Below, piece after piece: positions 14,351 to 32,703 of a stretch of DNA of 40,691 bases. Under the pieces are notes generated by a model. The model saw nothing but the letters and a program-made list of their open reading frames with translations. It had not been told where the DNA came from and did not search any database. How positions within the stretch are numbered: the stretch's first letter is position 1; each line of letters begins with the position of its first letter. The translations under genes and the position numbers were made by a program. Where the stretch lies: NCBI GenBank assembly GCA_028718245.1, contig JAQUME010000005.1, forward strand, positions 1-40,691. Direction: 5' to 3'. The DNA comes from Candidatus Omnitrophota bacterium. GTDB taxonomy: Bacteria; Omnitrophota; Gorgyraeia; Gygaellales; Profunditerraquicolaceae.

Positions 14351-14826
14351 TATTTCTTTAAATCCAGGTGCCTCTCGATCTTCTCAAAGAAATCCCTGAT
14401 CTGGTGGATATTCTGGTTCATATCCCTGGAATCGCAGTTCATCTGGTTAAAGTTATCTCTTACGGCTCGCAGCTCCTCAACTATAGACTGAAGATTCCGG
14501 ATAAGGGCTTCATTGCGGGCATCTGCTGATTCTCTTGCTTGTCTGAATGAATCCTGTATATCCTTCAATGAATTCTGTGTAGCCCTTAATGAATTCTGCA
14601 TATCTCCCCTTATATCAAATATCATCTGCCCGATATTGGCAAACATCCTTATTAAAGCTGCCAGGAACAGACTGCCTGCCAAGATCAGGAATCCATAAAT
14701 AAGGGAGGCAGGATCCCTGTATCTGAACATGAACCATGCGCTTGCGGCAATGCCGCAGACCGGGGCCAGGTAAGAAAAACCCAGCAGGATTATTGTAATC
14801 GGCATTTTGTCGGCGATCTTTATCAT
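14350..14826 (-). CDS. small membrane protein with coiled-coil C-terminus
   Basis: Two hydrophobic segments (IILLGFSYLAPVCGIAASAWFMF, LIYGFLILAGSLFLAALIRMF) followed by a charged heptad-rich tail; overlaps the next gene at the stop. Confidence 0.6.
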   Translation of the reverse strand: MIKIADKMPITIILLGFSYLAPVCGIAASAWFMFRYRDPASLIYGFLILAGSLFLAALIRMFANIGQMIFDIRGDMQNSLRATQNSLKDIQDSFRQARESADARNEALIRNLQSIVEELRAVRDNFNQMNCDSRDMNQNIHQIRDFFEKIERHLDLKK

Positions 14827-14841: not shown

Positions 14842-16149
14842 TTACGAAATAGCCCGGTCAGTTCCCCTGGCTGAGTTTTCAATTAACTTGATTACCCCCG
14901 GGAAGCGGCTTACCAGGCTTTCTACGTAAGATCTGAAAGTGACCGATAAAATCTCCAGAAACTCGCCATTGAGATGGACCTGTTTTTTCTTGATCAGCCC
15001 GCTCCAATCCCGGTGCAACTGAGAAAGATTAAATAACCTGCCCAGCAGCCGGTCATCCTGTATTTTATAAACGGAAAAAAGTAAATGCCTGTGCAAGGTT
15101 TTATTAAATTCCTTATCGCTGAATCTTGCCTCCAAGAAAACGGATAAAAGCAAACCCAGGGCAAAGAGATTCTGCTGAAGGATATTTTCCTTCGGAGAGA
15201 AACTGGAGATATCTTTTTTTGAGCGATCGAAGTGGTAAAAAAAGGTTATGTCCAACAGGGATATCCAAAAGGATGCCCTGGGAAATTCAGGCCTGCCAAA
15301 ATCCTCCTGCCTGCCAATAGAACTAAAATAATCAAGATCCCTCAAAGAGTGGTGCAGGGCCAGCAAAAGATCCAGATAGATCAATTCATATTTCTTGTTT
15401 TCCAGGTCTTCTTCCAAAAAACGGTTAGCCAATCCGATATTATCCTTGATCTTAAGGGCAAAACTTTGGGCATCCCTGTAAAATCCCTCTTTTATATAAA
15501 AGGCATGATTCCATCTCCAGAAATTATTCAGCAAAGAAAATAGGTCATCTTTTTTCAGGTGCCCGGCGGTGGCCTGCGGCTCGTATATCAGATCGTAGCC
15601 AATTTTCCTCAGGCGGCCGGAAATATCCACATCTTCGAAGTTGCTCCTGTATTTCTCATCGAACAACCCCGCCGAAACCAGCGCTTCCCTGCGGAATAAA
15701 GTATTGGAGCCGAACAAAAATGGAGGGTTGGTCTTCCCGGCCTCTCCCCAGTGCTGCCCCATGTGCAGCGAGCGCCAGATGTCAAAGACGCTGGAGGCAC
15801 CGGATTCCAGAACCTTTCCGCCCGCTGCGGCCACATTCGATGAATCAATTCTTTCAGCCAGATTCTTCAACCAATCCTTATCCGGCAGGCAGTCAGAGTC
15901 CAGAAAAGCAATGAGCTCGGAGCCGGTATTTTTGATGGCGGTATTCCTTGCCGCCGCCAACCCCATATTTCCGGCATGCCTGATTATCCTTACCGGGAAC
16001 CTCCCGGCGATCTGAACGGTCATATCGGTTGAGCCGTCGTCGATAACCAGTATATCATCCGGCCGGGTACTCTGATGAAATACCCCACCCAAGCAAGCAG
16101 CCAGGGTATTCTCTGAATTAAAACAGGGGATACAGAGGGAGATTCTCAT
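14842..16149 (-). CDS. family 2 glycosyltransferase with C-terminal extension
   Basis: ISLCIPCFNSENTLAACLGGVFHQSTRPDDILVIDDGSTD, AFLDSDCLPDKDWL, NFEDVDISGRLRK. Confidence 0.9.
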   Translation of the reverse strand: MRISLCIPCFNSENTLAACLGGVFHQSTRPDDILVIDDGSTDMTVQIAGRFPVRIIRHAGNMGLAAARNTAIKNTGSELIAFLDSDCLPDKDWLKNLAERIDSSNVAAAGGKVLESGASSVFDIWRSLHMGQHWGEAGKTNPPFLFGSNTLFRREALVSAGLFDEKYRSNFEDVDISGRLRKIGYDLIYEPQATAGHLKKDDLFSLLNNFWRWNHAFYIKEGFYRDAQSFALKIKDNIGLANRFLEEDLENKKYELIYLDLLLALHHSLRDLDYFSSIGRQEDFGRPEFPRASFWISLLDITFFYHFDRSKKDISSFSPKENILQQNLFALGLLLSVFLEARFSDKEFNKTLHRHLLFSVYKIQDDRLLGRLFNLSQLHRDWSGLIKKKQVHLNGEFLEILSVTFRSYVESLVSRFPGVIKLIENSARGTDRAIS

Positions 16150-17378
16150 AGCGAGCGGATCTCTTTTTCTAATTTTGTTTTTAACCTGCTGATCTCTAAA
16201 AGGGCCATTTCTTTCTCGTCGCCGCCGGTTTTTTCCGGCCCCTGGAGTTTATTTAAAATACGGGAAAGCCTTCTTTTTAGCAGGTTGGTCACCGAGCCCC
16301 TGTAAGAAGCGTAGAACCTGTACCTTAATTTCATTGTTGTCGCCTGGCTTTTCAAAAGCTGCCCGGCCTTATTGGCCAGCCTTTGGTAACTGGCGATCTT
16401 TTTTACCTTTTTAGCTTTATCCAATAGGTAGGCTTTTGAGAGACGGCTGCCAAAAACCTCATCATAGCAGCTCATTAGGCAGCCGCTGCATCCGTTATTG
16501 ACAATAGAGTTGACCATCTTCATTCTCTTTCCAGAGAGCCATAATTCATACAAGCCTTCTTCCCTGATATTGCCGATCAGCTTGTTATTTGCCGCTTCTA
16601 TCCAGCAGGGGAATACATCACCGTTTGAAGCAATGGGGCAGGAGTACCAAAGGGCAGCGCAATTACGGGGATGGGATCTCCGTCCGGCTAAATACGCGGG
16701 TATCTTGCGCAGATAACTTTCCGGATTAACGGAAATTTTGTATTCTTTGGAGACGCTGATAAACCTCCCGATCAGGCCCTCCATCTTCTGGATATCCGCT
16801 TCATCTATGAAAAATCCTGCGCCGGAAGCGCGATCCTTCAGGAAGATCAGGTTAAAAGGCTGCAATCTTACGGTGGTGGACCCGTAATTCTTAGCTACTT
16901 CTAAAATATAAGGCAGCTCTTTATAATTATACCTTGATACGGTTGAAGCCACGGTAGATTCTATTCTTTGGCTCCTGAGGTTCTCCAGGGCAGAAAGCGC
17001 CTTCTCAAAACTGCCCTCACCTCTCAAATGATCATGCGTCCCTTTGCTTCCCTCTATAGAAATATTCACCACATTGACGCCGGATGCGCTTAGCCGGGAT
17101 GCAGCCTGGCTATCGATCAAACAGCCGTTTGAAGTAAGGCAGGCATTCAGCTTATTCTTCCTCGTGAAATAAATGAGCTCAAAGATATCCTCTCTTAAAA
17201 GCGGCTCCCCACCGCTGAAAACTATGGTTTGGCTGCCTAATCTGGAGGCGTCACTGATCACTTTCTTCCATTGATCGGTGGGCAATTCCTCGGATTTTCC
17301 GCCGGGGATATCGCACATCCTGCAGCGTAAATTGCACCTGTTGGTAATGGAGATAATGACTTCCTTAAGGTTTGGCAT
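16146..17378 (-). CDS. radical SAM protein with SPASM-type C-terminus
   Basis: NRCNLRCRMC, FSGGEPLLREDIF, C-terminal CxxxxxxC/CWIE/GCSGCLMSC cysteines. Confidence 0.9.
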   Translation of the reverse strand: MPNLKEVIISITNRCNLRCRMCDIPGGKSEELPTDQWKKVISDASRLGSQTIVFSGGEPLLREDIFELIYFTRKNKLNACLTSNGCLIDSQAASRLSASGVNVVNISIEGSKGTHDHLRGEGSFEKALSALENLRSQRIESTVASTVSRYNYKELPYILEVAKNYGSTTVRLQPFNLIFLKDRASGAGFFIDEADIQKMEGLIGRFISVSKEYKISVNPESYLRKIPAYLAGRRSHPRNCAALWYSCPIASNGDVFPCWIEAANNKLIGNIREEGLYELWLSGKRMKMVNSIVNNGCSGCLMSCYDEVFGSRLSKAYLLDKAKKVKKIASYQRLANKAGQLLKSQATTMKLRYRFYASYRGSVTNLLKRRLSRILNKLQGPEKTGGDEKEMALLEISRLKTKLEKEIRSL

Positions 17379-18516
17379 TTTTCAGCAAACTTTCATAATC
17401 CGTCAGCCTGGACAAAGCGGCATCCAGTAGTTCCTTTTTTTCTTGCCGGCCGGAGCTGTATTTTCTTACTTCATAAATAAAAGTATCTACGATACCGGAT
17501 AATGAATCCGCCTCAGGATGGGACCAGCAGGTCTGCAGGCAGGGCTTGCGGCAGTTTTTCATCAGGCCCCTTGCCCGGTCAGCCTCCGGGGTATCAAGGC
17601 AGGCTTCAAGATCCATATTTCTTATATTGCCAAAAGCCGCTCCGCAGCTCCTTACCTCCCCATCCGGGCCGATGTTTATAAAAACAAACGGGTTGCATGA
17701 CCACTCCTGGCTGGTCAACTGGCCGTTAAAATGCCTGAGCCATAAATAAGGGTCATGTAAAAATGCCACTAAACCGTTTTTCTTCTGGTAATCCACGATC
17801 CTGTCTATCTGTCCTTTAAGTATCTTGACCTCCTCCTCTTGCAGCCAGAAGCGCGCGCTGGAGGAGGTATTCTGCATATCCTCCTGAGCCACGATCACCG
17901 GGTGATAAACCAGGCATTCAACCCCCAACTCCCTGGCCACAGAGATGATATCAAACAGTTCTCCCACATTTTCCTTCATAATGGTAGTCCATACCGATAT
18001 CTGGGGGCCGCCGCGGTTATCCCGCTTTGCGGCCACAAGATGCTTCAACGCTTCTGTCGCTTTCCTGAACGCGCCTTTTTCTCTTATGTAATCATGGGTC
18101 TGTTCCCCGGCTCCGTCCAAAGAGACGGCTATGTTCTTCAGCCCTGAAGCCATTATTTTTCCTGCTACGGCCCGGTCGATCAATGAGCCGTTGGTAACCG
18201 CCTCGATATTCAGGTTTGCCTCCCGCGCGTATCGGAATATTTCAAAAATGTCCTTCCTTAAAAACGGCTCTCCTCCGGTGATAACCACTGTGAAATCCCG
18301 CTGCCAGCCGGATATTTCATTAAAAGCCTTCTTAACGTCTTCGGTGTTCAGCTCGTATCCTTTGAGTATTTTCACTACCCCGCACATCTGGCAATTATAG
18401 GTGCATTGGTGGCTTAAGCTGATGAATATCCATAGAGGTTTAGCCAGCCTCTTGTTTAAAACCCGGGAAAAATAATAACTTAAGTTTGTTTCAAATTTTT
18501 TAAATGCTTCCGTCAT
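17365..18516 (-). CDS. radical SAM protein with SPASM-type C-terminus
   Basis: HQCTYNCQMC, ITGGEPFLRKDIF, C-terminal WSCNPFVFINIGPDGEVRSCG...NCRKPCLQTCW. Confidence 0.9.
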   Translation of the reverse strand: MTEAFKKFETNLSYYFSRVLNKRLAKPLWIFISLSHQCTYNCQMCGVVKILKGYELNTEDVKKAFNEISGWQRDFTVVITGGEPFLRKDIFEIFRYAREANLNIEAVTNGSLIDRAVAGKIMASGLKNIAVSLDGAGEQTHDYIREKGAFRKATEALKHLVAAKRDNRGGPQISVWTTIMKENVGELFDIISVARELGVECLVYHPVIVAQEDMQNTSSSARFWLQEEEVKILKGQIDRIVDYQKKNGLVAFLHDPYLWLRHFNGQLTSQEWSCNPFVFINIGPDGEVRSCGAAFGNIRNMDLEACLDTPEADRARGLMKNCRKPCLQTCWSHPEADSLSGIVDTFIYEVRKYSSGRQEKKELLDAALSRLTDYESLLKNAKP

Positions 18517-19921
18517 CGCCTACCTGCCTTACTATTCCGTAATCCCTGCTTATTTTATTCTCTATTTTTTCCAGATACCGCAGCCGGGAATTCCTAAGCT
18601 CAAAGTTATTGCAACCGTCCTGCGAATTCCACAGCCCCAGATGCGGACCGTCCAGGACAATCCCGAATTCATCCTTATGCTTCTGCAGGTAAGAAAACTG
18701 GTTGATAGTCAGGGTGCTGAAGGTATTCTTTTTTATTAATTTGCGGTGCCCGGAGATAAAATCCGCGGTTCTCTTGAAGTCTTCATCGGTTTCCCCCGGG
18801 AAGCCCACGATCCAGTTTGCCACTATCTCTATCCCGGCGCGGCTGCATTCCCAGATAAAAATGCTTGCCTCCTCCCTGCTAAAACCCTTATGCATCATCT
18901 TCAGGATCTTATTCGAGGCGCTCTCCAGGCCCAAGATCAGATATTCACAGCCTGACCTGCGCATTTTCTTCAACAGCTGCCGGTCGAACCGCTTATCAAC
19001 CCGGCAATTCCCTCCCCAGTTGATACCGACCCTCTTGGCGATAAGCAGCTCGCATAACCTCACAAAATTATCGTAATTACCGTTGACCAACGAGTCGTTA
19101 AAGCTAACGAACCTGTTGCGGTATTCCTGGCGCAGACGCATGATCTCGGCGACGACATTTTGGGCGCTGCGGCAGCGGTAATTTATCCAGAAATAGGTAT
19201 CGGTGCAAAAGACGCAGCGCATTACGCATCCCCGGCTGGTAATTACCGGCAGCGATGACCTGTCCGTGTAGGCGCTCAAATCATAGGCCGCGAAGTCAGG
19301 ATCCGGCAATTCATCCAGGTTGGTTATGGAGCTGGCAAGGCCGTTAAATACCCATCTTCCCTCTTTGGGGGTTACTGTGCCGGGCAAGCCATCCAGGGTA
19401 ATCCCGGCTTCAATCCGCCTGAGGATATCCAGCAGGGTATTTTCCCCTTCCCCGATCACGATAATATCGGCATATTCTTCCAGCCCGTGATGAAGCTTAA
19501 AATCCGTATCCTCTCCGGAAATGTTATAACAGTTCGGACCGCCCAGGATTATCCTCTGAGAGGGTTTTCTTAGTTTTATCCTCTTGATGATCTCCAGGGT
19601 GAACAGGACGGATGTGTTCTGGACGGAAAAACCCAGGATATCGCTGTTACAGGACAGTATCCTGTTAACGCAATCTTCATAATATTGCTCATCGATAAAG
19701 GGGAGTTTCTTGAAAGGCTCAATCAAATACCAGTGATAGCCGCTGGAACTATCCCAATACAGCCTGTCTTTTTCATTCCTCTTGCCATAGAGGACAATAT
19801 TCAAATCCAAAAGCTCGACGCTATGGCCGTTCTTTTTCAGACATGAGCTTAAATACGCCAGGCCCAGACCGGGCATGGCTGTCCCGAAGGCGCAGGGGCA
19901 TTGGACGAGTGCGATCTTCAT
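18500..19921 (-). CDS. B12-binding-domain-type radical SAM protein
   Basis: MKIALVQCPCAFGTAMPGLGLAYLSSCLKKNGHSVELLDLN, TSRGCVMRCVFC, LGLESASNKILKMMHKG; ORF-track start 19939 trimmed to the ATGA-overlapping ATG at 19921. Confidence 0.9.
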   Translation of the reverse strand: MKIALVQCPCAFGTAMPGLGLAYLSSCLKKNGHSVELLDLNIVLYGKRNEKDRLYWDSSSGYHWYLIEPFKKLPFIDEQYYEDCVNRILSCNSDILGFSVQNTSVLFTLEIIKRIKLRKPSQRIILGGPNCYNISGEDTDFKLHHGLEEYADIIVIGEGENTLLDILRRIEAGITLDGLPGTVTPKEGRWVFNGLASSITNLDELPDPDFAAYDLSAYTDRSSLPVITSRGCVMRCVFCTDTYFWINYRCRSAQNVVAEIMRLRQEYRNRFVSFNDSLVNGNYDNFVRLCELLIAKRVGINWGGNCRVDKRFDRQLLKKMRRSGCEYLILGLESASNKILKMMHKGFSREEASIFIWECSRAGIEIVANWIVGFPGETDEDFKRTADFISGHRKLIKKNTFSTLTINQFSYLQKHKDEFGIVLDGPHLGLWNSQDGCNNFELRNSRLRYLEKIENKISRDYGIVRQVGDDGSI

Positions 19922-21360
19922 CAGTATTGCACCTCGCATTGATAGTGCTTATGCAGTTCTCTTGCCAGGCTGCGGAAACGCTGGAGCCTACTTTTCCTTA
20001 TCTCCGGAGTGCTCTGCCGGTTATGCCAGCCGTCTTCCTTGAAAATAATCCCGTATTTATCCACATTAAGACCGAGGTAAGAATCCTCTTCAATGTGGCA
20101 GCCGGTTACCTGGTCAAAACAATATATGAACCTGGCGTTTTCTCTGATAAAATCAAGTGTGCGCTGAAAATCATCCTCGGTCTCCGTAGGATAACCTATG
20201 AGAAAGAAGCAGTTCGCCTGGATACCCGCCCTCCAGGTATCCCGGATTATCTTTTTGGCTTCCTCGATATCATTGTTCTTATGCATTTCCTTTAAGACGG
20301 CCGCTGAGCCGCTCTCAACCCCATAGGCAAGGCTGGTGCAGCCTGCTTTTTTCATTTTTTCAAGCAACCTATAATCCATGCCTTTGCTCAAAGTCGCCTT
20401 GGCAGACCACCTGATATCAAGTTTAGAGCCTATGATCAGGTCGCATATGGCAGCCACCCGCTTGATATCGCCGTTAAAAGTTGAATCCATGATCTCAAAT
20501 TCATTCTTATGGTATTTCTCAACAATATGCCTGATCTCTTTGATCACCCTCTCGGCAGAGCAATAACGGTATATCTTCCATAGAGGGCTGTCGGCGCAAA
20601 AGGCGCAACGGTTGATGCATCCTCTGCTGGTTACCAGCGGCATTGAAGCTCGCTTATAGCCGGCAAGCTGATAATCGTCATAATCGGCGCAGGGGAGCAT
20701 ATCCAGGTCTTTCAATAAACCTCTGGGCTTATTCGCTGTCACTTTCCCATTCTCCGCGTATAGGGCCCCGTCAATAGAATGAAAATCTTTACCCTGGCCC
20801 AGAAGAGAATGGAGCTCCACTAATGCCTCCTCGCCTTCCCCGTCAAGCAGGATATCAAAATAACCGCCGGTAATAATATTCCGGTCAAGAGCGGCAAATC
20901 TCCTTATGCCGTCGGCCATTACCCTTTTGATCCTGGTTGCCTCCGGCCCGCCGCCGATAATTATCAACTCCGGATCTTTCTTTTTCAGCTCTTTAGTCAA
21001 AAGCAGGCTTACCATATAACTGGACATGAAGAGGGAAAATCCCACTACCCTCGGCTTTTGGCTGAGGATCTGACCGGCCCACTTGTCGATAAAAGGACTT
21101 AAAAATAACAGGACATGTTTCTCAAAAAGCACGGGGTCGGTAAAATATTCGGGATAATTCAAATCCCAGTAATTCTTATCGGAAAAATCTTTATACAGGT
21201 CAAAACTGAAATCAAAACACTTAACCCTTATTCCCTTCTGTTTCAAATATCCCTTCAAATAACTTATACCTACCGGCGGTTGGTCTATCCCCCAGGCCGG
21301 GCACATTATCAGGGCGATATCCAGATCATAATCAGCGTTTTGTGGTGAATCGGCGTTCAT
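19921..21360 (-). CDS. B12-binding-domain-type radical SAM protein (paralog of downstream gene)
   Basis: LDIALIMCPAWGIDQPPVGISYLKGYLKQKGIRVKCFDFSFD, TSRGCINRCAFC, YGVESGSAAVLKEMHK; start trimmed from 21423 to the ATG at 21360 just after the upstream TAA. Confidence 0.88.
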   Translation of the reverse strand: MNADSPQNADYDLDIALIMCPAWGIDQPPVGISYLKGYLKQKGIRVKCFDFSFDLYKDFSDKNYWDLNYPEYFTDPVLFEKHVLLFLSPFIDKWAGQILSQKPRVVGFSLFMSSYMVSLLLTKELKKKDPELIIIGGGPEATRIKRVMADGIRRFAALDRNIITGGYFDILLDGEGEEALVELHSLLGQGKDFHSIDGALYAENGKVTANKPRGLLKDLDMLPCADYDDYQLAGYKRASMPLVTSRGCINRCAFCADSPLWKIYRYCSAERVIKEIRHIVEKYHKNEFEIMDSTFNGDIKRVAAICDLIIGSKLDIRWSAKATLSKGMDYRLLEKMKKAGCTSLAYGVESGSAAVLKEMHKNNDIEEAKKIIRDTWRAGIQANCFFLIGYPTETEDDFQRTLDFIRENARFIYCFDQVTGCHIEEDSYLGLNVDKYGIIFKEDGWHNRQSTPEIRKSRLQRFRSLARELHKHYQCEVQY

Positions 21361-21361
21361 C

Positions 21362-22495
21362 TTATCGGCGTTTTTTAAATAAGCGTTCTTTTTCAAATAT
21401 ACCCGCAAACTCAATAAACTCATCCCGGTAAGAGCACCATTGGAGGCAGGGAAAGCGGCATTTTCTGATCAAACCCCTGTAATCCCTTGCTTTCTTTGAG
21501 AACCACAGCGATTTCAAGCTGTCTTTTGAGACATCCCCGAATGTCGCCTCGCTGTTTTCCTGTTCCACGCAAAAATAAACCTTCCCCTCCTGAACAACCT
21601 GCAGGCGGTTATACCCCGCGTAACATGGCATTTTCCAGCCCCTCATCTTCCCCCGGAAATAACTTTTCATTAATTCAAGATTGCCGGCGCTATTGGCGAT
21701 GAAATCAAAATTTGCTTCGCTTGATCGCTTGAATTTCACCAGGCTGTCTATCGCACTATCTAAAATCTTGTATCTTTCTTCCGGGATAAAAGTCGGGCGG
21801 CTGGAGTCCCTGATCCTTTGATCGGTGTTATTGGCGACTACCGGCTGTAATATTATCCTGGATATCTTTATTTTTCTGCACAAAGTTACTATATCCATTA
21901 ATTCTTCTATGTTCTGGTCCATAATCGTGCAAACAGAGCATATGTTGGGATAAGGTTTATTTTCTTTGGTTTTCATGGCATTAATCAGGTCGATATTACC
22001 TATTATCTTCTGCAATACATTCTCGCCCCTTATTTTAGCAAAGCTGCCTTCAGAAGCGGCATCGATAGATACGCTGAAGTTTAGATTATCTAATTTATAG
22101 TCAAATATCTTCTGTATCAGTTCCCTGGTAAAGAGAGTGCCGTTGGTCACTATAGTAATACCCTGCATGCCGCACTCCTTGCCGAAAGCCGCTAATTCCA
22201 ATATCTTCGGTTCCAGGAAGGGCTCCCCGCCGATCAAAATTAACGACTTGATCCCCATTTCACCGGCTTCCCTTATTAAGTTTTCCATGACCGCAATGTT
22301 CAATTCATAGGGCTTATTCCGGGACTTAAAAGACCGGGATAAATCATGCATGCTGCACATCTTGCATCTTAAATTACACCGAAAGGTAAAATTAATTTGT
22401 ATGCAATCGGGGGGGATCAATGGGTAGTCGATCTTACGTGAAAGCCAGAAAAGCAATCCCTTTTTTATAAGTTGGATTTTTCTCTTGTTATTCAT
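21362..22495 (-). CDS. radical SAM protein with SPASM-type C-terminus
   Basis: FRCNLRCKMC, LIGGEPFLEPKIL, C-terminal MPCYAGYNRLQVVQEGKVYFC...KCRFPCLQWC. Confidence 0.9.
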   Translation of the reverse strand: MNNKRKIQLIKKGLLFWLSRKIDYPLIPPDCIQINFTFRCNLRCKMCSMHDLSRSFKSRNKPYELNIAVMENLIREAGEMGIKSLILIGGEPFLEPKILELAAFGKECGMQGITIVTNGTLFTRELIQKIFDYKLDNLNFSVSIDAASEGSFAKIRGENVLQKIIGNIDLINAMKTKENKPYPNICSVCTIMDQNIEELMDIVTLCRKIKISRIILQPVVANNTDQRIRDSSRPTFIPEERYKILDSAIDSLVKFKRSSEANFDFIANSAGNLELMKSYFRGKMRGWKMPCYAGYNRLQVVQEGKVYFCVEQENSEATFGDVSKDSLKSLWFSKKARDYRGLIRKCRFPCLQWCSYRDEFIEFAGIFEKERLFKKRR

Positions 22496-22504
22496 AACTT
22501 CCCC

Positions 22505-24418
22505 TTAATCGCAAAAACAAGGCAAAAGGCAGGGTTTAGCGCATGCCGCAACCCTCTTTCTTGCCCGCTGGCTGGCCTTTGATTCAAATATTTTCCTTAA
22601 TCCGTTTTTACGGATATTACCGTAACTCTCAAAACAGGTGGTCACCTCGCCATTATTAGCGATAAGCATGGTCTTGGTTATATAATGGCACTTCACATCG
22701 TCACTGGAAAGGGTGCCGCGGAAATATTTCTTTACGAGATTCAGGTTCTGCTCCGAATTACGCAACAGACTGAAATTGTCCCTTTTAAACCCGATTAATT
22801 CATCCACCACTTTATCCAAAACAGCCAGCCTGTTTTGCGGTACCCAGTATTTAACCCCCGTTTCCCTTTCCCTCATGACCAAATTATTGGAAAGCAGCGG
22901 CTGAAGCTGAATGGAATTAACGTTCAGGGATTTTAAAAAATTAACCAGGTCAATTAGCTCTTCCAGGTTTTCATTCAAGATTATAGATATTACATTAAAA
23001 TTTATATTTGGGTAGCTCTTTTTTAACGCGGAAAGCGATTTTAATCCGCCGCGGGTTTTTTCAAAACATCCCCGGGAACCCCGGATATCATCGTGGAGGC
23101 CGGGGGTCATCGCGTCAAGGGATATGCTTAATGACAACGACTTAGCCGCGAAATAGGGCAATAATCTTTTAATCAGCGTTTCATCCAGCTTAATGCCGTT
23201 AGTCAGTATCCCGACAGAGTAATTCCTGGCTTTCACAAAATCCAGTATGTCAAATATATCCTCCCTCAAGAGCGGCTCTCCTCCGGATAGAACAAACTCC
23301 TTTACGCCCCATTCTATAGCCTGATCAATAATGCCCTTTACCTCATCCAGGGTATATTCCTCTATCTTCCTGTCTTTTCTGATCTCGCAAATATTGCACC
23401 TGAGATTGCACCTATGGGTAATATCTAAAATTATGTATTCGGGTTTAAGGCCGGTTTCTTTTGTATCCTCCCCCCGGATTAAATCAGACATTTTTAGCGC
23501 GCGCATATGCTCCGCTATGTTGCCCGCTAAATACATTATTTTATGCAATGCAAAATAAACATACACCTGGAATTTTTGAAAAGGTTTAAGGCCGGCGTAA
23601 AATTTAATAAGCCGCCTGCCTGAAATAAAGGAGAACCTTGGGGCCTTAATAAGATTTACGATAAGCCCGAAGGCAAAAATGGCGCTGTTTGCGGTCTTTA
23701 TTTCCTGCAACAAAGGATGGTCTTGATGCATATGCTGGACCAGATAATTCCCTCTCCCGTACATATATGCCTGCCTTAAGAAAGAAATAAAATCCGTGTG
23801 GCAATCATGGCGTACTTTTATATCTTGCCTGTGGATGAACCTGTCCCCCTTCTTAAATAGACGCCAAAAGAAATCCAGGTCTTCTCCAGCTGGCAAAGGG
23901 AATAATTCGTTAAAGCCTTTAGCAAGATAATCCCGTTTAAAAGACACATTGCAGGTAGGAAAGAATATAGTATTGTCTTCTCCCTTTATCCGGACATTTA
24001 TCGCTCCGTCGCTTAATGATTGGCTGACCATCGCCTTGATATTACGCCTGTCAACATAAGTTTCTCCTCCGATCGCCGCGATATGCTGCTCTGCCCTATG
24101 CGCCGTGACCATCCCCTTAACCCACCCCCTATCCAGGAGGCAATCAGAGTCCGTGAAACCGATTATCCGCCCTTGCGCGTGTTTTATGCCTAAATTCCTG
24201 GCCGCTGCCGGCCCTTTATGAGCCTGGATAAAATATTTTAAATTGGGATTTGTTTTAGAAAGCTCCACGAGCATATCTCCGGTGCCGTCGCTGGACCCAT
24301 CATCTATTACAATGATCTCAAAAGAATTTTTGGCGTAATCCTGACCGGATAAGGAATCCAGGCAGGCCTTAAGTTTGGACTTTCGGTTGTATGCGGGAAT
24401 TATTATAGATATATCCAT
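22505..24418 (-). CDS. bifunctional fusion: GT2 glycosyltransferase + radical SAM/SPASM-type protein
   Basis: N-term ISIIIPAYNRKSKLKACLDSLSGQDY...IDDGSSDGTG...FTDSDCL; C-term HRCNLRCNIC, LSGGEPLLREDIF, VKCHYITKTMLIANNGEVTTC...CAKPCLLPCFC, one uninterrupted 637-aa ORF. Confidence 0.92.
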   Translation of the reverse strand: MDISIIIPAYNRKSKLKACLDSLSGQDYAKNSFEIIVIDDGSSDGTGDMLVELSKTNPNLKYFIQAHKGPAAARNLGIKHAQGRIIGFTDSDCLLDRGWVKGMVTAHRAEQHIAAIGGETYVDRRNIKAMVSQSLSDGAINVRIKGEDNTIFFPTCNVSFKRDYLAKGFNELFPLPAGEDLDFFWRLFKKGDRFIHRQDIKVRHDCHTDFISFLRQAYMYGRGNYLVQHMHQDHPLLQEIKTANSAIFAFGLIVNLIKAPRFSFISGRRLIKFYAGLKPFQKFQVYVYFALHKIMYLAGNIAEHMRALKMSDLIRGEDTKETGLKPEYIILDITHRCNLRCNICEIRKDRKIEEYTLDEVKGIIDQAIEWGVKEFVLSGGEPLLREDIFDILDFVKARNYSVGILTNGIKLDETLIKRLLPYFAAKSLSLSISLDAMTPGLHDDIRGSRGCFEKTRGGLKSLSALKKSYPNINFNVISIILNENLEELIDLVNFLKSLNVNSIQLQPLLSNNLVMRERETGVKYWVPQNRLAVLDKVVDELIGFKRDNFSLLRNSEQNLNLVKKYFRGTLSSDDVKCHYITKTMLIANNGEVTTCFESYGNIRKNGLRKIFESKASQRARKRVAACAKPCLLPCFCD

Positions 24419-27133
24419 TTATGTGTCTTGTATAGCCAGGATACCGGAAAAATAAGGGTATTTGCCCGGCAAGAAATTTATTTTTGAAGAAGACGCGTAT
24501 TGCAGTATCCTGCCGCGGTGATAAATGTCTGAATTCATTATTTTAAGACGCCATTGCGGATTTGATTCCTGGAGGCGCAAAGAGAGCCCCGGCAAATTAC
24601 GCGCGGGATCCTCCCTCAAACCGATAACCCGGTCATCTTCCTTCCCTCTCCACAAACAATCCCAGCTATCGTCGGTTTCGCCTGAAAATTCAGGGAAGGC
24701 CCCCTCCTCCCGGCCCCCTATCCAGCGGGAAAATCTCTCGGAAGACATAATGTTTGCCTGAAGACAATCTAATGTGATCTCCTTTTCTACGCCCAGAACC
24801 ACCTGCCAGGAAAAGATCCCGTTGTCCCTAAGGAGGATCTCCCACTCTTGAGATAAAGGCAGATCCAGCCATCTGCCAAAAATCCTCAGTTTCTTCCCGT
24901 CATTATAGACGACCTTCCAAATGGCAGCGGAGAAGGAATCATGCCAGCGCTTCTGTGAGCGTATTGAAGTGTAAAGCGCGATATTCTTGGTAAGCTCGCT
25001 CCCGTTTTTATAAAACCGCCCGCTTCCTTTATCAAATACCAATTTGATATCCTTATTTTCAATGGTGTTATCAAAGATATCCGCGCGCACCGTATTATTT
25101 TTACCAAAAACAAACCTTGCCTTGAAACATTCGTGCCTGCCGGGAGAAAACACCATATTCTCCTCCGGCTCAACCTTCTCCACGTGTAAAAGCCTTGCCT
25201 TGCTATAAAAATCGGAATTAAAAACTTTCACGAAATTATCCAATTTTTCTGAAAAGAACAAAGATACTCTGGGCAGCTTACCTGCGCGGTCGCTCAGCTC
25301 TGCCGGGCCCAGCCAAACGCATCTTTGCAGGAGGTCAACTTCTCGGTCGGTAAATTTGTCGCTGAATTCTCCAGAAGCGAACTCGCTGAAAAAAAGCTTA
25401 AAATCCCCGGGGAAAAAACACCGCAGGCGCTGCTGCTGGATAGCCGTATCCCGATCTACCTCCAGGTCAACATCCCAAGTAAAAGAAGAATCATCGCATA
25501 TATTGATCTGCCATATTTGACGGATCCCGAAATTATCCCAGCTTCCGCGGGCAGTCATTTTACTCTCGGACTCTTTTTCCAATTTCCAACGGCCTGAATC
25601 CGAAGAATGCCATCTCTGTTGCGCAAAGAACGCCGAATGCATGTGCTCCGCTTTGGTCAGGGGGATATTATCGAAAAAGAGCCTAATCCTGCCCTTATCA
25701 AATGCCAGTTTCAGCCTGCCGTTTGATATGGCGGATTCATTTTGCATTCTGGAGATGTGGCCGTTTATATCCCCTATACCAACTATTATTTTGCCGGAAA
25801 AACAGCTGATCCTGCCGGTTTGATCCGGGACTGCGGCGATGAGGGGAACGGCTTTGAACTGCAATATGCGCCCCGGGTTAAAATAATCGGAATTGGATAT
25901 GGAGCCCTGGACCGGATATTTCAAGGGCGGGTTTTCAAACAGCAAAACAGGCAGTTCTCCTGAAGCCGAATCCTGCTGATATACCCCGATGCAGACAGCT
26001 GTTCCGTTTTTGGAAAATACGGGCATCCAGCTCTTATCCTCTTCTTTTATATCCGGGAAGTCTCCGGCATCCTGATCAAGAACCCACTTATTATACCCCT
26101 TATCAAGGAAAGCATTAAAGTATACTTCCGGCAGCGGGGCTTCTTTTTCCGGCTCGATTTCCATATCCCAGCTGATCTCATTATCATCGCTTACCCGGAG
26201 GCTCCATATCTGAGTAAGCCCCAGATGGGGAAATTTACCTGTCGCCATAAGCATTCCTGCGGTATCCCGCAGTTCCCATTCTGCCTGGCTGGAATTATAC
26301 CACCTGCCGGAGAGCCCAAATGCGGTATAAATCCCCGAAGGAGCGGTGATTTGGTTTCCTTTCCAGTTCAATAATACCCGGCCGTTATTGAATACCAGGC
26401 TTAGATCTTTTTTCCTGATAATAGCGCTTCCCTTTGGGCTGCCCAGCGCCTGCGAATAAAAAGATGTGGTCTTGGAAGCATTCCCGTCGCTGACCATCAT
26501 CCCGTTTTTCAGGAATATCGCTCTTTTGCACAATTTCTGCAGCAAAGCCAAGTCGTGGGTAACAATGACCACCGTCTTGCCGCTCTCCTTTAGCTTGAAT
26601 ATTTCTTTGATGCACTTTTTCTGGAAATATTCATCCCCCACCGACAGCGTGTCATCGATAAGAAAAATGTCGGGGTCCATGTGTATTGCTATGGCGAAAG
26701 CCAAGCGCACGAACATGCCCTGCGAATAGCACTTTACCGGTGCGTCTATGAACTTGCCGATCTCGGCAAAATCAACGATCTTCCGGTGCCCCTTATCGAT
26801 CTCTTCGCGGCTTAAGCCGAAAAGCTCCGACTGCAGGAAAATATTCTCCCTTCCGGTAAGCTCGGGCTGAAAGCCCGCGCCCAATTCCAGAAGCCCGGCT
26901 ACCCTTCCGGAGACATTTACCTGCCCCCGGTCCGGGTTTAACATCCCGGCGATCAATTTCAAGACAGTAGACTTTCCCGCGCCATTCTCTCCGATTATCC
27001 CCAGCGTTTCCCCTTTTTCCATGGAGAAGCTGACTCCCCGCAGGGCCCAGAAATTCTGCCAGGAGGCCTTACCTTCAATAATAAACTTGATACGGTACAT
27101 CTCCCAGGCATCCTGAAATTTGATTATAGGCAT
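24419..27133 (-). CDS. Wzt-like polysaccharide ABC transporter ATPase with three tandem ~205-215 aa C-terminal modules
   Basis: Walker A GENGAGKST, signature YSQGM, IDDTLSVGDEYFQKKC; C-terminal 660 aa made of three internal repeats (about residues 243-455, 473-678, 695-901). Confidence 0.9.
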   Translation of the reverse strand: MPIIKFQDAWEMYRIKFIIEGKASWQNFWALRGVSFSMEKGETLGIIGENGAGKSTVLKLIAGMLNPDRGQVNVSGRVAGLLELGAGFQPELTGRENIFLQSELFGLSREEIDKGHRKIVDFAEIGKFIDAPVKCYSQGMFVRLAFAIAIHMDPDIFLIDDTLSVGDEYFQKKCIKEIFKLKESGKTVVIVTHDLALLQKLCKRAIFLKNGMMVSDGNASKTTSFYSQALGSPKGSAIIRKKDLSLVFNNGRVLLNWKGNQITAPSGIYTAFGLSGRWYNSSQAEWELRDTAGMLMATGKFPHLGLTQIWSLRVSDDNEISWDMEIEPEKEAPLPEVYFNAFLDKGYNKWVLDQDAGDFPDIKEEDKSWMPVFSKNGTAVCIGVYQQDSASGELPVLLFENPPLKYPVQGSISNSDYFNPGRILQFKAVPLIAAVPDQTGRISCFSGKIIVGIGDINGHISRMQNESAISNGRLKLAFDKGRIRLFFDNIPLTKAEHMHSAFFAQQRWHSSDSGRWKLEKESESKMTARGSWDNFGIRQIWQINICDDSSFTWDVDLEVDRDTAIQQQRLRCFFPGDFKLFFSEFASGEFSDKFTDREVDLLQRCVWLGPAELSDRAGKLPRVSLFFSEKLDNFVKVFNSDFYSKARLLHVEKVEPEENMVFSPGRHECFKARFVFGKNNTVRADIFDNTIENKDIKLVFDKGSGRFYKNGSELTKNIALYTSIRSQKRWHDSFSAAIWKVVYNDGKKLRIFGRWLDLPLSQEWEILLRDNGIFSWQVVLGVEKEITLDCLQANIMSSERFSRWIGGREEGAFPEFSGETDDSWDCLWRGKEDDRVIGLREDPARNLPGLSLRLQESNPQWRLKIMNSDIYHRGRILQYASSSKINFLPGKYPYFSGILAIQDT

Positions 27134-27134
27134 A

Positions 27135-27926
27135 TTAAATACGTTTTAAAACCATAGACTCGAGGCGGACCGACACCGCCAGACCGATAAACAAACTCGC
27201 GAAAGCCAGGCAGGTAACCCATAAGAATACCGCTGGCCCGGGCATCCTGCCGTAAAAGACAATCTCCCGGTAACAGAAAATAAACGGGGAAACCGGGTTT
27301 AAATTGAATACCCAGCGGAATTGTTCCGGGACCATCTCCACGGAATAAAAAACAGGGGTCACCCAAAACCAAAACATAAGCAGGATGCCCAGCAGATGCT
27401 CCAGGTCGCGCAAGATTATGTTGACTACGCTGAACAATAAGCCGACCCCGCAGGTAAAGAAATAGGTCAACAAAAAAAGGGGCGGCAGCAAAAAAGCCGC
27501 CGGGAGGATCCCGGGGTTACGTAAAAAGAATACCGGCAATACTATGCACCAACTTATAAGAAAATTCATAAAATAAGACAGCATAGAACTCAAAGGCAGT
27601 ATCTCTTTCGGCAGGCTGAACTGGTGGAGGACGCTTTTCTGGGCCAATAAAGAAGGGTTGGCTTCGGATACGGCCGAGGAAAAGAACATCCACGGTAAAA
27701 TACCGGAGAGGATAAATAAAGCAAAATCCTTTACCTCTGTCCTGAAAACAGCGGTGAATACAAAGGTGATCACCAATACCATCAAAAGTGGATTTATTAT
27801 CACCCAGAAAAGCCCTAAAACAGACCCGGCATACTTAGCCCTGAATTGCTTCCATGACATTCCCCATAAAGAGCGGCGGTAGGAATATATTTTCTGGAGT
27901 CTTATTATAATTGATCTCATGAACAT
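27135..27926 (-). CDS. Wzm-like ABC-2 polysaccharide transporter permease
   Basis: SWKQFRAKYAGSVLGLFWVIINPLLMVLVITFVFTAVFRTEVKDFALFILSGILPWMFFSSAV; NIILRDLEHLLGILLMFWFWVTPVFYS. Confidence 0.92.
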   Translation of the reverse strand: MFMRSIIIRLQKIYSYRRSLWGMSWKQFRAKYAGSVLGLFWVIINPLLMVLVITFVFTAVFRTEVKDFALFILSGILPWMFFSSAVSEANPSLLAQKSVLHQFSLPKEILPLSSMLSYFMNFLISWCIVLPVFFLRNPGILPAAFLLPPLFLLTYFFTCGVGLLFSVVNIILRDLEHLLGILLMFWFWVTPVFYSVEMVPEQFRWVFNLNPVSPFIFCYREIVFYGRMPGPAVFLWVTCLAFASLFIGLAVSVRLESMVLKRI

Positions 27927-27941
27927 CCGTATCCCCGGAGC

Positions 27942-29267
27942 TTAGGGCCTTTTTGTTTTAAACCTGGATATCTCATCATCTATAAAACTTTCCCCTGAGG
28001 AAAGCTGTTTTGCTTTTTCCAGGCTCTTTAATGCCAGGTCATTTTTATTCATTTTTTCATATATCTTAGAGAGAGTAAGATACGCCTGCCTGTAGCGCGG
28101 ATACGCTAAAACCAGTCCTTCTACGATCTGCTGCGCCTTAACTGATCCCCCAATGCCGTTCAGCGCGTAGGCATAATTATTCAACAAGACGGGGTCAGCG
28201 GGAAATTTTTCTAATTTTTCCCCGCTATATTTTATTTCCTGCCGGTATTCACTAAGGGCCTGATCAGGCTTTCCTAAAACAATGTAAATATCGGCGATAT
28301 CATTGTGCATATTGGGATAATCATTTTTTAGCGCGCCCAGCTTTCTATATCCCTCAAGCGCCTGAGCGGACATTTTATTATCCCGGTAAACGCTGGCCAG
28401 GCTGTATACATAATCGGCGTTCTCCGGAGCAAGGCTGACTGCCCTCTCTAAATAAGGGATGGCTTCTGAATAGCGTTCAAGCCGCATCAATAATAACCCA
28501 AGGTCATTTAAGGCGGCTGGATCGCTGGCATCCAAAGAGACTGTCTTTTGCGCATAAAACAGGGACTTATCCATATCTCTTTTATACAGATAAATATCGG
28601 AAAGCAATTTATAGGCCTGGTTGAACTGCGGATCTATCCCGAGAGATTTGTTCAGGTAAATTTCCGCTTTATCGTAATCCCCGTCGGCAAGATAATAATA
28701 GCCCAGCGTATAATACGCCAGGGCGTTTCCCGGACACGAGACAAAGAGATTCTCCAAGAGGAGGATCGCTTCCCCGCTCTTCTTCGCCAGGAACAATTCC
28801 GTGCTCTTATTTAAGGCGTCGGCAAGGTAGGCATAGCAGCAGCTTTTGAATGACTCTATTAATTTCTGGTCCGAAGGGATCCCCTTCTGCCCCTGGAGTA
28901 AAACCTTCAGGGCCTCCTCATAATTTGCCTCCTCATAATATACATGGGCTAAAGAATCGTATGCCCTGGCATAAAGAGGATTTATCGAGAGCACTTTTTT
29001 GTATTCCCGGGCCGCTCCCTGATAATCCCCGCTTTCCCTGTAGACATCCGCCAATCCCAGATGCGCCATCCAGGACCCGGGATCCATCCTTATAGAGTTC
29101 TTATAAGAGGCGGCTGCTTTCTGGTAATCCATCTGTTCAAAATAATAATTACCCCGGTTGCAGAAGAATGCCGCCAGCTTCCCCCATGCCAGGAATGCGA
29201 AAGCCCCCAACAAAACTACAAGCAGTAAATATCCGATCACCTTTCTCGCCGCCGGTTTCTTCACCAT
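27942..29267 (-). CDS. membrane-anchored TPR protein
   Basis: N-terminal TM (VIGYLLLVVLLGAFAFLAWG) then many TPR units (AHLGLADVYRESGDYQGAAREYKKVLSINPLYARAYDSLA...). Confidence 0.88.
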   Translation of the reverse strand: MVKKPAARKVIGYLLLVVLLGAFAFLAWGKLAAFFCNRGNYYFEQMDYQKAAASYKNSIRMDPGSWMAHLGLADVYRESGDYQGAAREYKKVLSINPLYARAYDSLAHVYYEEANYEEALKVLLQGQKGIPSDQKLIESFKSCCYAYLADALNKSTELFLAKKSGEAILLLENLFVSCPGNALAYYTLGYYYLADGDYDKAEIYLNKSLGIDPQFNQAYKLLSDIYLYKRDMDKSLFYAQKTVSLDASDPAALNDLGLLLMRLERYSEAIPYLERAVSLAPENADYVYSLASVYRDNKMSAQALEGYRKLGALKNDYPNMHNDIADIYIVLGKPDQALSEYRQEIKYSGEKLEKFPADPVLLNNYAYALNGIGGSVKAQQIVEGLVLAYPRYRQAYLTLSKIYEKMNKNDLALKSLEKAKQLSSGESFIDDEISRFKTKRP

Positions 29268-30565
29268 AATTTTATCTCCCCTGCCGCCCTCCTGCCGTCA
29301 AGTATCGCCTCTTCCATAGACAAATACTGCCAGCTTCCGTAACGGCCGCAGGCAATTATATTGCTGGCTGATAAGAATTCTTTTATTGCCGTAGTTGCCC
29401 GGAAATAATTCCGGTCGTAAATAGGATAGCCGTATTTAATATCATTTACATCCAGGACCGATACCCTGTTTTTTTTGGTCAAGGTACCGGAGCGGTACAG
29501 GTCCGCTAAAACCTGCTTAACGATCTTTTTCCTGTCAATCGGCCTGTTTTCTGAATAGGAAACTTCGGTGTATAAAGAGCTTCTGCCGCCGGGTGCGTTA
29601 TTATTGGAAAAGTTGTGGAAGAACCCGACCCTGAAAAAAATGGTTTCTTTTTGCGGGAAATATGTCCAGTGCTTTCTATCCTGGCAGCTCCCCTCTACGC
29701 CGAGATTCAGGTTAAAGATCGAATTCCAGCGCAGCTTCTTAAGGCTCTTAAGGATCTTTCCGGGCAAGGGGTTAGCTATCTTCATCAATTCGGGCAAAGG
29801 TATTGTCAACACCAGGGTATCAAACCTTTCCTTGCCGCGGCCTTTGATGGTTATTTCCTTCTTTTTAAGATCGATCGAACTAACATAACAACCCTTGGAA
29901 ATCCCGCCTACCTCTTTTTCAAATGCCCGGGAGAGCCGGTCAATCCCCCCTTTCACGGGATACCAGAAATTTGCATTATAACCAAAATGATTCCGGCTTC
30001 CCGCCAGGAATCCGTCAATTATATCGGACAGGCTTGGCTGAGGGATAAATTTATCCGACCATGGACAACCTATCCGGTTTAAAGAGGTTGCCCAGAATTT
30101 TCTGTTATAAGGGACCATAAAATGCCTGGCTATACCTTTGCCAAAAGTAGTATTTATCCATTTCAGAAAATTTTCCTGGATATTGACCGGCCGGGGTAAT
30201 TTAGCGGCATAAATGAATTCCAGCAGGCATTCCATGGCTATCTGCCTGGGTAAAGCCCCCAGGTTGGCCTGAAAGGGATAACGGATAAAGATACCGGAAT
30301 TATTGATCCAGGCATTTCTTTCATGCTGCGCCAGATTTCCCTTTAATAACCTTGCGGCCAATTTCAGCGTATAGTTATTCCGGAAATGTAGGAGGTGGCC
30401 GCAATAATCAAAAACAAAATCCCCTGCCTGTTTAGAACGGCATAATCCCCCTACTGTATTTTCCTTTTCAAATACAGCGCCTCCCAGCCCCCTTTTTTTA
30501 AGATGCCAGGCGGCGCTTAAACCGGCCAATCCCGCCCCCAAAATAATGATCTTTTTCTCAGGCAT
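29261..30565 (-). CDS. FAD-dependent amine-oxidase/UDP-galactopyranose-mutase-like oxidoreductase
   Basis: IIILGAGLAGLSAAWHLKKRGLGGAVFEKENTVGGLCRS dinucleotide-binding fold; C-terminal GRYGSWQYLSMEEAILDGRRAAGEI. Confidence 0.82.
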   Translation of the reverse strand: MPEKKIIILGAGLAGLSAAWHLKKRGLGGAVFEKENTVGGLCRSKQAGDFVFDYCGHLLHFRNNYTLKLAARLLKGNLAQHERNAWINNSGIFIRYPFQANLGALPRQIAMECLLEFIYAAKLPRPVNIQENFLKWINTTFGKGIARHFMVPYNRKFWATSLNRIGCPWSDKFIPQPSLSDIIDGFLAGSRNHFGYNANFWYPVKGGIDRLSRAFEKEVGGISKGCYVSSIDLKKKEITIKGRGKERFDTLVLTIPLPELMKIANPLPGKILKSLKKLRWNSIFNLNLGVEGSCQDRKHWTYFPQKETIFFRVGFFHNFSNNNAPGGRSSLYTEVSYSENRPIDRKKIVKQVLADLYRSGTLTKKNRVSVLDVNDIKYGYPIYDRNYFRATTAIKEFLSASNIIACGRYGSWQYLSMEEAILDGRRAAGEIKLW

Positions 30566-31541
30566 TTGATTCTATCTTAACCAATCCCAGGAATATACCG
30601 GTGCTGAACAGAAAAACAGCTATAATGATGCCCGCTGCGGAGAGGTCGCTTACCCTTGTCAGAAGGATACCGCAGCCGGCAAAGACAGAGGATAATAAAT
30701 ACATGGCCGAGATCGTTTGCGCCTTTGAAAAACCCAGAGCGCCCATCTTTAAGGCGATATGGTCATTGCTTTTCTTAAAAGGGGGCCTCCTCTTGATTAT
30801 CCTGAATATAATAAGCAACAGTGTATCCATGATGGGCAGACCGAGGATGACCACCGGGCTAAGCAGCGCGAAGGCATTGCTGCTTGAAGCATAATGGGTG
30901 ATTAAGGCGATACAGGAGATGAGCATTCCCAGAAAATGACTGCCGGAATTGCCCAGATAAGCCCTTGCCGGAGGGAGGTTAAAGATCAGGAAACCCGCAC
31001 TTGAGGCGCAGAGTACCAGGCTTAAGATCTGTACGTTTAGATCCGCGCTTAAAAAACCTATCCACAGAAATGCGCTGCCGACGATAAGCGCAGTTCCGGC
31101 AGCCAGGCCATCCATAATATCCAGCAGATTAAAGGCGTTGGTCAGGCCCAGGATCCAGAAAAAAGTAATTACGGCATTACCCCAAAACCCGAAATAAACA
31201 ATATCGGTCCTTATGCCGGATAAGATCAATAGAGCGGCGCAAAATGACTGGACCAGGAATTTCTGTGTTATAGACAATTCTCTTAAATCATCCACTACCC
31301 CGAAGAATAATACCAGGCCGCAGGCAAAGATTACCGTTAATATCTTAAGCGGAGAAAGGCCGAACATAAAAACAGCCAAAGCTGAAGAAAAAACAAAAGC
31401 CAGCCCTATCCCCGCTCCTCCCACCAAAGGGATATTCCCTGTTATAAGTATTTTACGCCTCAAGGAAAACCTTGTCAGTAAAAATGTACAAAGCATGCTG
31501 GAGATCAGGGCGGCGGTAAGGATGATCAGGTATTTAAGCAT
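30558..31541 (-). CDS. WecA/MraY-family polyprenyl-phosphate sugar-1-phosphate transferase
   Basis: Polytopic; FFGVVDDLRELS, NAFNLLDIMDGLAAG, GNSGSHFLGMLI, DHIALKMGALGFSKAQ motifs. Confidence 0.88.
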   Translation of the reverse strand: MLKYLIILTAALISSMLCTFLLTRFSLRRKILITGNIPLVGGAGIGLAFVFSSALAVFMFGLSPLKILTVIFACGLVLFFGVVDDLRELSITQKFLVQSFCAALLILSGIRTDIVYFGFWGNAVITFFWILGLTNAFNLLDIMDGLAAGTALIVGSAFLWIGFLSADLNVQILSLVLCASSAGFLIFNLPPARAYLGNSGSHFLGMLISCIALITHYASSSNAFALLSPVVILGLPIMDTLLLIIFRIIKRRPPFKKSNDHIALKMGALGFSKAQTISAMYLLSSVFAGCGILLTRVSDLSAAGIIIAVFLFSTGIFLGLVKIESNA

Positions 31542-32703
31542 TTCTCCCTCCCCCCAATAAACCGGAATATATTCCTTCGGTATCTCTCAGCATATTACCT
31601 AATGAGAACTCCCCGGAACCGATACTCTCCCTGGAAAGCCTGACAAATTCATTTCTCCGCGGGGTATTTTTCAATAATTCAACGACCCGGTTGCGCATGG
31701 ATTGAATATCCCCCGGTTTAACCAAATAGCCTGTTTTGCCATCTGTGATCACCTCCCTGATGCCGCCGGTATCAGTAGCTACCAGGGGAACTCCCGCAGC
31801 CATTGCCTCCAAGGCAGCTATCGGAAGTCCTTCCCATCGCGAGGTAAGCACAAAGATATCCAGGCAGGATAAAATTAGGGGTATATCATTGCGCCAGCTG
31901 AGCAGAATAACCACCTCCTCCAGCTTAAGCTTCTTTATCAGGGAGCAGGCCTTTCGGCGCAATATCCCATCTCCTGCGAGGATAAATTTAGTATCGGGAA
32001 AATCTTTTTTAATGGCAGCGGCTAATTTTATAAAATCCAGCGGGGATTTCTGCTTCTTAAGGCAGGCAACCGTACCTATGACCGGCCCATCCCCGGACAG
32101 CCCCAAATTTTCCCTTGCTGCAGGCGGCGTGGCGCTGTTCTTGAACTCCTGGTTATTTACGGCATATCTTATCAGCTCATATTGGTCCCTTCTTCCGACC
32201 GCATGGGCTAATCCTTTGTTCAGGTCAGAACGGGAAACAACGATTATTTTGCTGGTAAAAGCCGCGCAGGCCTTTTCCAAAAACATATACAAATGATACG
32301 GGATTTTATGTTGATAATCGTGGAAACTCCAACCGTGAACGGTGTGGACAATAACCCTGATGCCGGAGAGCCTGGCTGCACACCTGCCTAAAATCCCTGC
32401 CTTTGAGCTATGCGTATGCACTACATCTATATTATTATTTTTTATAAAAAAATACAGGAAAAATAAGGCAAGGATATCTTTGGCCGGATGGATGGGGCGC
32501 TCAAGGAATTTACAGCGGATCAGCCTTAAATCCGGGATCATCGCCGCCTCATCTACCAGCAAACCATCTTGGCCGGTTAGAAGATAGGGCTTGAATTTTT
32601 CCTTATTTAACCCCCGGATAAGGCTTAAAAGCTGCTTCTGGGCCCCGCCTAATTCCAGCTTGGTGATCACATAAAGTATATTGATTTTCCGCTCAAAACT
32701 CAT
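31534..32703 (-). CDS. family 4 glycosyltransferase
   Basis: NILYVITKLELGGAQKQLLSLIRGL, HTHSSKAGILGRCAARL, SRWEGLPIAALEAMAAGVPLVATDTGGIREVI. Confidence 0.93.
   Translation of the reverse strand: MSFERKINILYVITKLELGGAQKQLLSLIRGLNKEKFKPYLLTGQDGLLVDEAAMIPDLRLIRCKFLERPIHPAKDILALFFLYFFIKNNNIDVVHTHSSKAGILGRCAARLSGIRVIVHTVHGWSFHDYQHKIPYHLYMFLEKACAAFTSKIIVVSRSDLNKGLAHAVGRRDQYELIRYAVNNQEFKNSATPPAARENLGLSGDGPVIGTVACLKKQKSPLDFIKLAAAIKKDFPDTKFILAGDGILRRKACSLIKKLKLEEVVILLSWRNDIPLILSCLDIFVLTSRWEGLPIAALEAMAAGVPLVATDTGGIREVITDGKTGYLVKPGDIQSMRNRVVELLKNTPRRNEFVRLSRESIGSGEFSLGNMLRDTEGIYSGLLGGGRNA

Follow-up and report, generated by a model that had tools for sequence, protein, structure and literature searches.

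A conserved fusion of a GT2 glycosyltransferase with a radical-SAM enzyme in surface-glycan loci of Omnitrophota

The known substrates of radical-SAM enzymes include peptides and sugars, the latter either free or linked to a nucleotide; DesII is a sugar deaminase, and SuiB and SkfB are peptide maturases. We know of no radical-SAM enzyme that is joined to a sugar-adding transferase and acts on the polysaccharide while this is being assembled. The Twitch domain, a truncated form of the SPASM domain, carries one auxiliary cluster and up to four cysteines. The SPASM domain itself is defined by two auxiliary clusters and a seven-cysteine motif, CX9-15GX4C-gap-CX2CX5CX3C-gap-C (PMC6231123). BlsE decarboxylates the sugar acid of cytosylglucuronate (PMC3715490), and the Twitch enzyme BtrN oxidises an aminocyclitol (PMC9012708). 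The gene described here joins a radical-SAM (rSAM) enzyme to a GT2 glycosyltransferase in a locus that resembles the Wzm/Wzt O-antigen loci, with which it shares a WecA/MraY-like initiator, GT4 and GT2 enzymes, Wzm, and a Wzt with a long C-terminal part. In contrast to those loci, the loci of this type bear an unusual load of radical-SAM genes (from 4 to more than 12) and several fusion enzymes. The component parts are already known. Our literature search, which covered papers available without subscription, found no description of a GT2/radical-SAM fusion or of rSAM-rich Wzm/Wzt loci.

The window, which is the whole stretch of 40,691 nucleotides that was analysed, is contig 5 of a metagenome-assembled genome of 1.2 Mb in 99 contigs, and a scan of it against Rfam gave no match. 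The fusion gene occupies 22505-24418 on the minus strand and encodes 637 aa, as supported by its single frame, its domain matches, and its homologues. The preliminary description had this single-ORF fusion and its coordinates right, with the strand unstated, and the residues that it quoted (IIPAYNRKSKLKACLDSL, DDGSSDG, DSDC, ED, and CNLRCNIC) are all present. The GT2 domain (residues 1-310; 23489-24418, minus strand) contains a DDGS motif at D40, a DxD motif at D90/D92, and an ED pair at 179-180, and long helices (210-231, 245-273, and 279-316) form its C-terminal end. It matches the Pfam model PF00535 at residues 4-165 (E 2e-32) with 112.9 bits against a curated cut-off of 23.3, and this score, together with the DxD and ED catalytic motifs, places it in the GT2 family. 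A variable linker (residues 311-325; 23444-23488, minus strand), in which residues 313-323 have a pLDDT below 50, leads to the radical-SAM core (residues 326-500; 22919-23443, minus strand) with C337xxxC341xxC344 and GGEP at 379-382. The core matches PF04055 at residues 333-495 (E 2e-23; 83.7 bits against a cut-off of 29.5), and its CxxxCxxC and GGE motifs and the agreement of its model with radical-SAM structures place it in the radical SAM superfamily. The protein ends in an auxiliary-cluster domain (22505-22690, minus strand) with the pattern C577-x12-G-x4-C595 ... C626-x3-C630-x3-C634, where the Pfam SPASM model exceeds its cut-off of 21.5 bits at residues 577-628, with a score of 27.2 (E 4.8e-6).

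Across 22 fused proteins, D40, D90/D92, and E179-D180 of the GT2 half, C337/C341/C344 and E381 of the rSAM half, and C577/C595/C626/C630/C634 of the auxiliary domain are invariant. In a separate alignment, G379-G380-E381 is invariant as well. Because the catalytic residues are invariant, both halves look active. C577, C595, C630, and C634 are common to all 50 of the 50 rSAM domains aligned from these loci. The label "radical SAM/SPASM-type" that had been given to the protein holds for the radical-SAM domain and the C-terminal cysteine cluster; the SPASM part does not hold, since the 22 fused proteins have five invariant cysteines, in the arrangement CX12GX4C...CX3CX3C, instead of the seven of the full motif. 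The auxiliary domain appears to be Twitch-like, and its cysteine count fits one auxiliary cluster. Among the NCBIfam matches listed, neither half reaches the cut-off of a named family. The best matches of the GT half, MftF (TIGR03965; 141.4 bits against 280) and EpsD, both fall below their cut-offs, and among the best 25 matches listed for the rSAM half none reaches the cut-off of a named rSAM equivalog (MftC, PqqE, or others), with StsB the best at 86.2 bits against 625 and MftC at 68.6 against 265.

A phylum-wide search of 386 genomes found the fused gene in 18 genomes, including that of the window. The other 17 fused proteins, one of which (in G373) is cut near its end by a contig end, are 44-62% identical to ours along their length. 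Four further genomes (G417, G464, G465, and G468) emerged from a profile search within the class, which brings the number of Omnitrophota genomes to 22; in a 23rd, G230, the gene is broken by two contig ends, and the rSAM fragment still bears the end of the GT2 part. The fusion spans several families of one Omnitrophota class, and its close fused homologues in named collections are also Candidatus Omnitrophota. A scan of genome contigs returned two close fused homologues and one weak GT2 match, and all matches among viral contigs were weak and covered the GT half, in whole or in part. Genome G243 holds the only split pair, with GT2 and rSAM as two separate frames; the GT2 frame ends a few bases past an A6 run, and the rSAM frame begins within the last GT2 codons. 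Because this rSAM nests inside the fused clade in the rSAM-domain tree (a clade of 20 rows with SH-aLRT 100), we consider the split to be secondary or an error. A more distant protein with GT2, rSAM, and SPASM in the same order (G025, L061:8312-10345; 677 aa, 28% identity) adjoins PMT-type glycosyltransferases.

A G6 run near the junction and the metagenomic origin of the assembly could arouse suspicion of a chimera or a frameshift. However, the same fusion recurs in 22 genomes, at the identities given above or with strong profile matches, and base composition is smooth across the junction (GC 44.2% and 42.8%, GC3 49% and 51%, on its two sides). Given this smooth composition and the recurrence of the fusion in many independent genomes, such an artefact is excluded for practical purposes, and we give it almost no chance. 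The fusion is genuine, as first observed. The search for homologues with the same domain order yielded 22 or 23 fused forms against one split form, and the idea that all homologues might be two separate genes is therefore false.

The C-terminal half is 34% identical to the protein of the adjacent gene at 21362-22495, in agreement with the earlier statement that the two are paralogous, and 28% and 31% identical to those at 17365-18516 and 16146-17378, respectively. The motifs said to be shared with the adjacent protein differ slightly from those quoted, with YFRG present there and GKVYFC and RFPCLQWC in place of the others; GEVRSC and RKPCLQTC occur in the protein at 17365-18516. The rSAM halves of all fused proteins form one clade apart from the neighbouring rSAM paralogues. 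A recent duplication of the adjacent rSAM gene within the locus was considered as the source of the C-terminal half and rejected, because the sequences of each rSAM type, taken from different genomes, group together in a separate clade. In genome G147 (L041:15492-16540), the orthologue of the rSAM gene at 17365 lies in two overlapping frames and may be a pseudogene or reflect a sequencing error.

The trees of the GT half and of the rSAM half conflict. Locus L060 combines GT type II with rSAM type I, and loci L042 and L052, from two independent genomes, combine GT type I with rSAM type II. Each tree is rejected when it is forced onto the data of the other half (AU p 4e-5 and 2e-5, values that are optimistic in that the groups were named only after the trees had been seen), and the conflict remains when four more sequences are added. 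Segment identity switches between residues 241-310 and residues 326-380, with the linker as the breakpoint region of module exchange between orthologues. The contig of L060 has a coverage of 2.3x, and that case alone might be a misassembly; L042 and L052 are free of this doubt. Judging from these trees, the halves have separate evolutionary histories and exchanged partners through recombination at the junction, and they thus act as swappable modules without strict mutual specificity. Because the halves differ in history and recombined at the junction, a tight one-to-one coupling between them is unlikely. The proposal of coupled sugar transfer and radical modification is thus upheld as a functional link, given the conserved fusion and the glycan operon, but not as tight coupling; likewise, the Rosetta-stone argument stands where it connects two functions, yet it does not prove that the active sites are coupled, since the halves were exchanged.

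The fusion gene lies in an operon-like run of 16 genes between 32703 and 12072, in which neighbours either overlap or stand no more than 15 bases apart; the genes listed below with coordinates are all on the minus strand. The run starts with a GT4 glycosyltransferase (31534-32703), a polyprenyl-phosphate sugar-phosphate transferase of the WecA/MraY family (PF00953; 30558-31541), a FAD amine-oxidase-like oxidoreductase (29261-30565), a TPR protein, a Wzm-like ABC-2 permease (27135-27926), and a Wzt-like ABC ATPase of 904 aa with a long C-terminal extension (24419-27133), followed by the fusion. Downstream are the radical-SAM/SPASM-like paralogue B (21362-22495), which has its own orthologous clade, two B12-binding radical-SAM proteins (19921-21423 and 18500-19939), the radical-SAM paralogue C (17365-18516), the radical-SAM/SPASM-like paralogue D (16146-17378), a separate GT2 glycosyltransferase (14842-16149), a 158-aa membrane/coiled-coil protein that is conserved in part of the loci (14350-14826), a third B12-binding radical-SAM protein, which is HpnJ-like (278 bits against a cut-off of 578; 12992-14350), and a further GT2 glycosyltransferase (12072-12995). 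With PF01061, PF00005, PF00953, PF00534, and PF00535 in one operon and conservation in relatives, the run has the make-up of an ABC-transporter-dependent surface-glycan locus. All fusion loci with enough context have Wzm and/or a long Wzt nearby, and in many of them the FAD oxidoreductase, the WecA/MraY-like transferase, and the GT4 enzyme are close to the fusion. The loci of other genomes contain a similar set, in which the number of rSAM genes varies and further genes, for example one for a GH44-like protein, are inserted. Among unfused homologues of the GT half, the closest (G192, 39%) adjoins a FAD oxidoreductase, a B12-rSAM gene, and an rSAM gene. In addition, the presence in the genome of genes for LpxC and for a Wzy_C-family protein makes an LPS-type envelope plausible.

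Several further observations were made in this window and in related genomes. By eye, the extension of the Wzt-like protein appears to contain three imperfect repeats of approximately 200 aa, and it is kept in relatives; in G333, of the same genus, a Wzt ATPase of 1189 aa (L063:8470-12039) carries a C-terminal radical-SAM/SPASM-like domain without CxxxCxxC. Other fusions include a triple B12-rSAM, GT2, and rSAM/SPASM protein of 1170 aa in the same type of locus (G133, L054:811-4323), an FkbM-type methyltransferase joined to an rSAM/SPASM domain (G243, L051:7115-8959), a tandem rSAM-rSAM protein of 810 aa (G199), and a protein of 962 aa with two radical-SAM domains plus SPASM (G147). Runs of approximately 10 or more radical-SAM genes are present in G199 (L047:1-16358) and G051 (L064). 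Elsewhere in the window, a lysine 2,3-aminomutase-like gene is joined to two D-Ala-D-Ala-ligase-like ATP-grasp genes (8685-11860), which perhaps form a beta-amino-acid peptide pathway, and a Peptidase_S74 (endosialidase chaperone) protein (6192-7325) has an N-terminal TTYYPSPVGSYQDL segment after a signal-like region.

The AlphaFold2 model of the full fusion, made with 18 orthologues, has two confident domains (mean pLDDT 87.1); its pTM is 0.52, and the mutual placement of the active sites is not fixed by it. The rSAM half modelled alone reached a pLDDT of 93.7 and a pTM of 0.91. For this half, Foldseek ranks BlsE first by E-value (E 2.9e-15; TM 0.69/0.68), with SuiB and SkfB close behind, followed by anSME, viperin, and DesII. 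BlsE acts on a sugar and is similar in fold (TM 0.69 by query) and in its CxxxCxMC-type motif; however, it is approximately 20% identical, and it is a stand-alone enzyme of a nucleoside-antibiotic pathway. BtrN, with a sugar-like substrate, also has few C-terminal cysteines, which fits one auxiliary cluster, but it is a stand-alone enzyme whose sequence match to the rSAM half is confined to the N-terminal core. Since SuiB and SkfB are almost level with BlsE, the ranking of predicted structures is not decisive for the rSAM substrate. The GT half matches TarP/TarS, PcManGT, WrtF, and other GT-A enzymes, and shares its fold and its DDGS, DxD, and ED motifs with such bacterial surface-glycan GT2 enzymes (including MftF and EpsD), in keeping with its place in a glycan export operon. 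It differs from them in being fused at its C-terminus to a radical-SAM enzyme.

Because the conserved single-ORF fusion sits in an rSAM-rich glycan export operon, we consider a link between transfer and radical modification to be the most reasonable interpretation. The likeliest role is in the assembly of a lipid-linked surface glycan, with the rSAM half remodelling a sugar, and we believe with moderate confidence that the protein has two functions, the addition of a sugar to the lipid-linked glycan and the alteration of a sugar by radical chemistry. In the substrate, reaction, and order of steps that we infer, the WecA/MraY-like enzyme and the GT4 enzyme would start the glycan on a polyprenyl lipid, and the metal- and nucleotide-sugar-dependent GT2 half would add a sugar. 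The rSAM half would then use SAM and its CxxxCxxC cluster to produce a 5'-deoxyadenosyl radical, which would take a hydrogen atom from a carbon of the sugar just added or of a neighbouring one, and one auxiliary Fe-S cluster, of Twitch type, would probably accept an electron. The sugar may thereby be oxidised, epimerised, decarboxylated, or altered in another way; the other rSAM and B12-rSAM enzymes of the operon may make additional changes before Wzm/Wzt exports the finished product. The fusion would keep transfer and tailoring together, with the halves as interchangeable modules and not as a co-evolved channel.

The recombination of the halves in L060, L042, and L052 would also suit a looser arrangement, in which the fusion serves only to keep two enzymes co-expressed and at one place in the membrane, while they act at separate steps of the same glycan pathway and share no substrate. 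The coexistence of the split form in G243 with fused forms and the short, variable linker, which is predicted to be disordered, point the same way. However, proteins that have diverged deeply, to 44% identity, are still fused, with only one split known, and we regard this arrangement as unlikely. Of somewhat lower probability is a peptide pathway, in which the rSAM half would be the maturase of a RiPP or protein, the GT2 half would glycosylate the same peptide, and the ABC pair would export it. Such a pathway would accord with the near-top structural matches to SuiB and SkfB, with the fact that, of the NCBIfam models, the GT half matches best that of the mycofactocin glycosyltransferase MftF (141 bits), which comes from a RiPP pathway, and with the resemblance of the B12-rSAM neighbours, below cut-off, to RiPP C-methyltransferase models.

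SuiB and SkfB (SPASM/Twitch) share the radical-SAM core and the SPASM/Twitch domain with the fused half, but they have a peptide-binding N-terminal domain and a precursor encoded nearby, and neither was found at the fusion locus. Within the run from 12072 to 32703, the gaps of 15 bases or less leave no room for a RiPP precursor gene. Moreover, approximately 15 mostly low-confidence residues separate GT2 from the rSAM core, too short, judged by length, for an RRE-sized segment. The peptide-maturase models among the matches listed all lie far below their cut-offs, and a Wzm/Wzt exporter with WecA/MraY-like, GT4, and GT2 genes is typical of glycans. It is also conceivable that both halves act on one lipid, the lipid carrier or a lipid anchor, which the rSAM half would modify and the GT2 half would glycosylate, as the HpnJ-like neighbour and the polyprenyl-phosphate transferase of the operon might suggest; no lipid-acting family is a good match for the fused rSAM half itself, and to this explanation we assign the smallest probability of the three.

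Given that the fusion recurs in related genomes within an operon for the synthesis and export of a surface glycan, we think that radical reactions probably rewrite the surface glycans of these bacteria. We suggest, more tentatively, that Omnitrophota may possess an undescribed class of surface glycan, the sugars of which would be rewritten during assembly by a battery of radical-SAM and B12-radical-SAM enzymes, by way of bifunctional enzymes built from exchangeable GT2 and rSAM modules, the triple B12-rSAM/GT2/rSAM fusion among them. Since the modules have been swapped in nature, it may be feasible to recombine the halves in experiments. If the reading as a transfer and tailoring enzyme is right, the GT2 half marks the step, so that the rSAM substrate would be testable with a small set of donors and acceptors, and the locus would give access to new carbohydrate chemistry from a major uncultured phylum.
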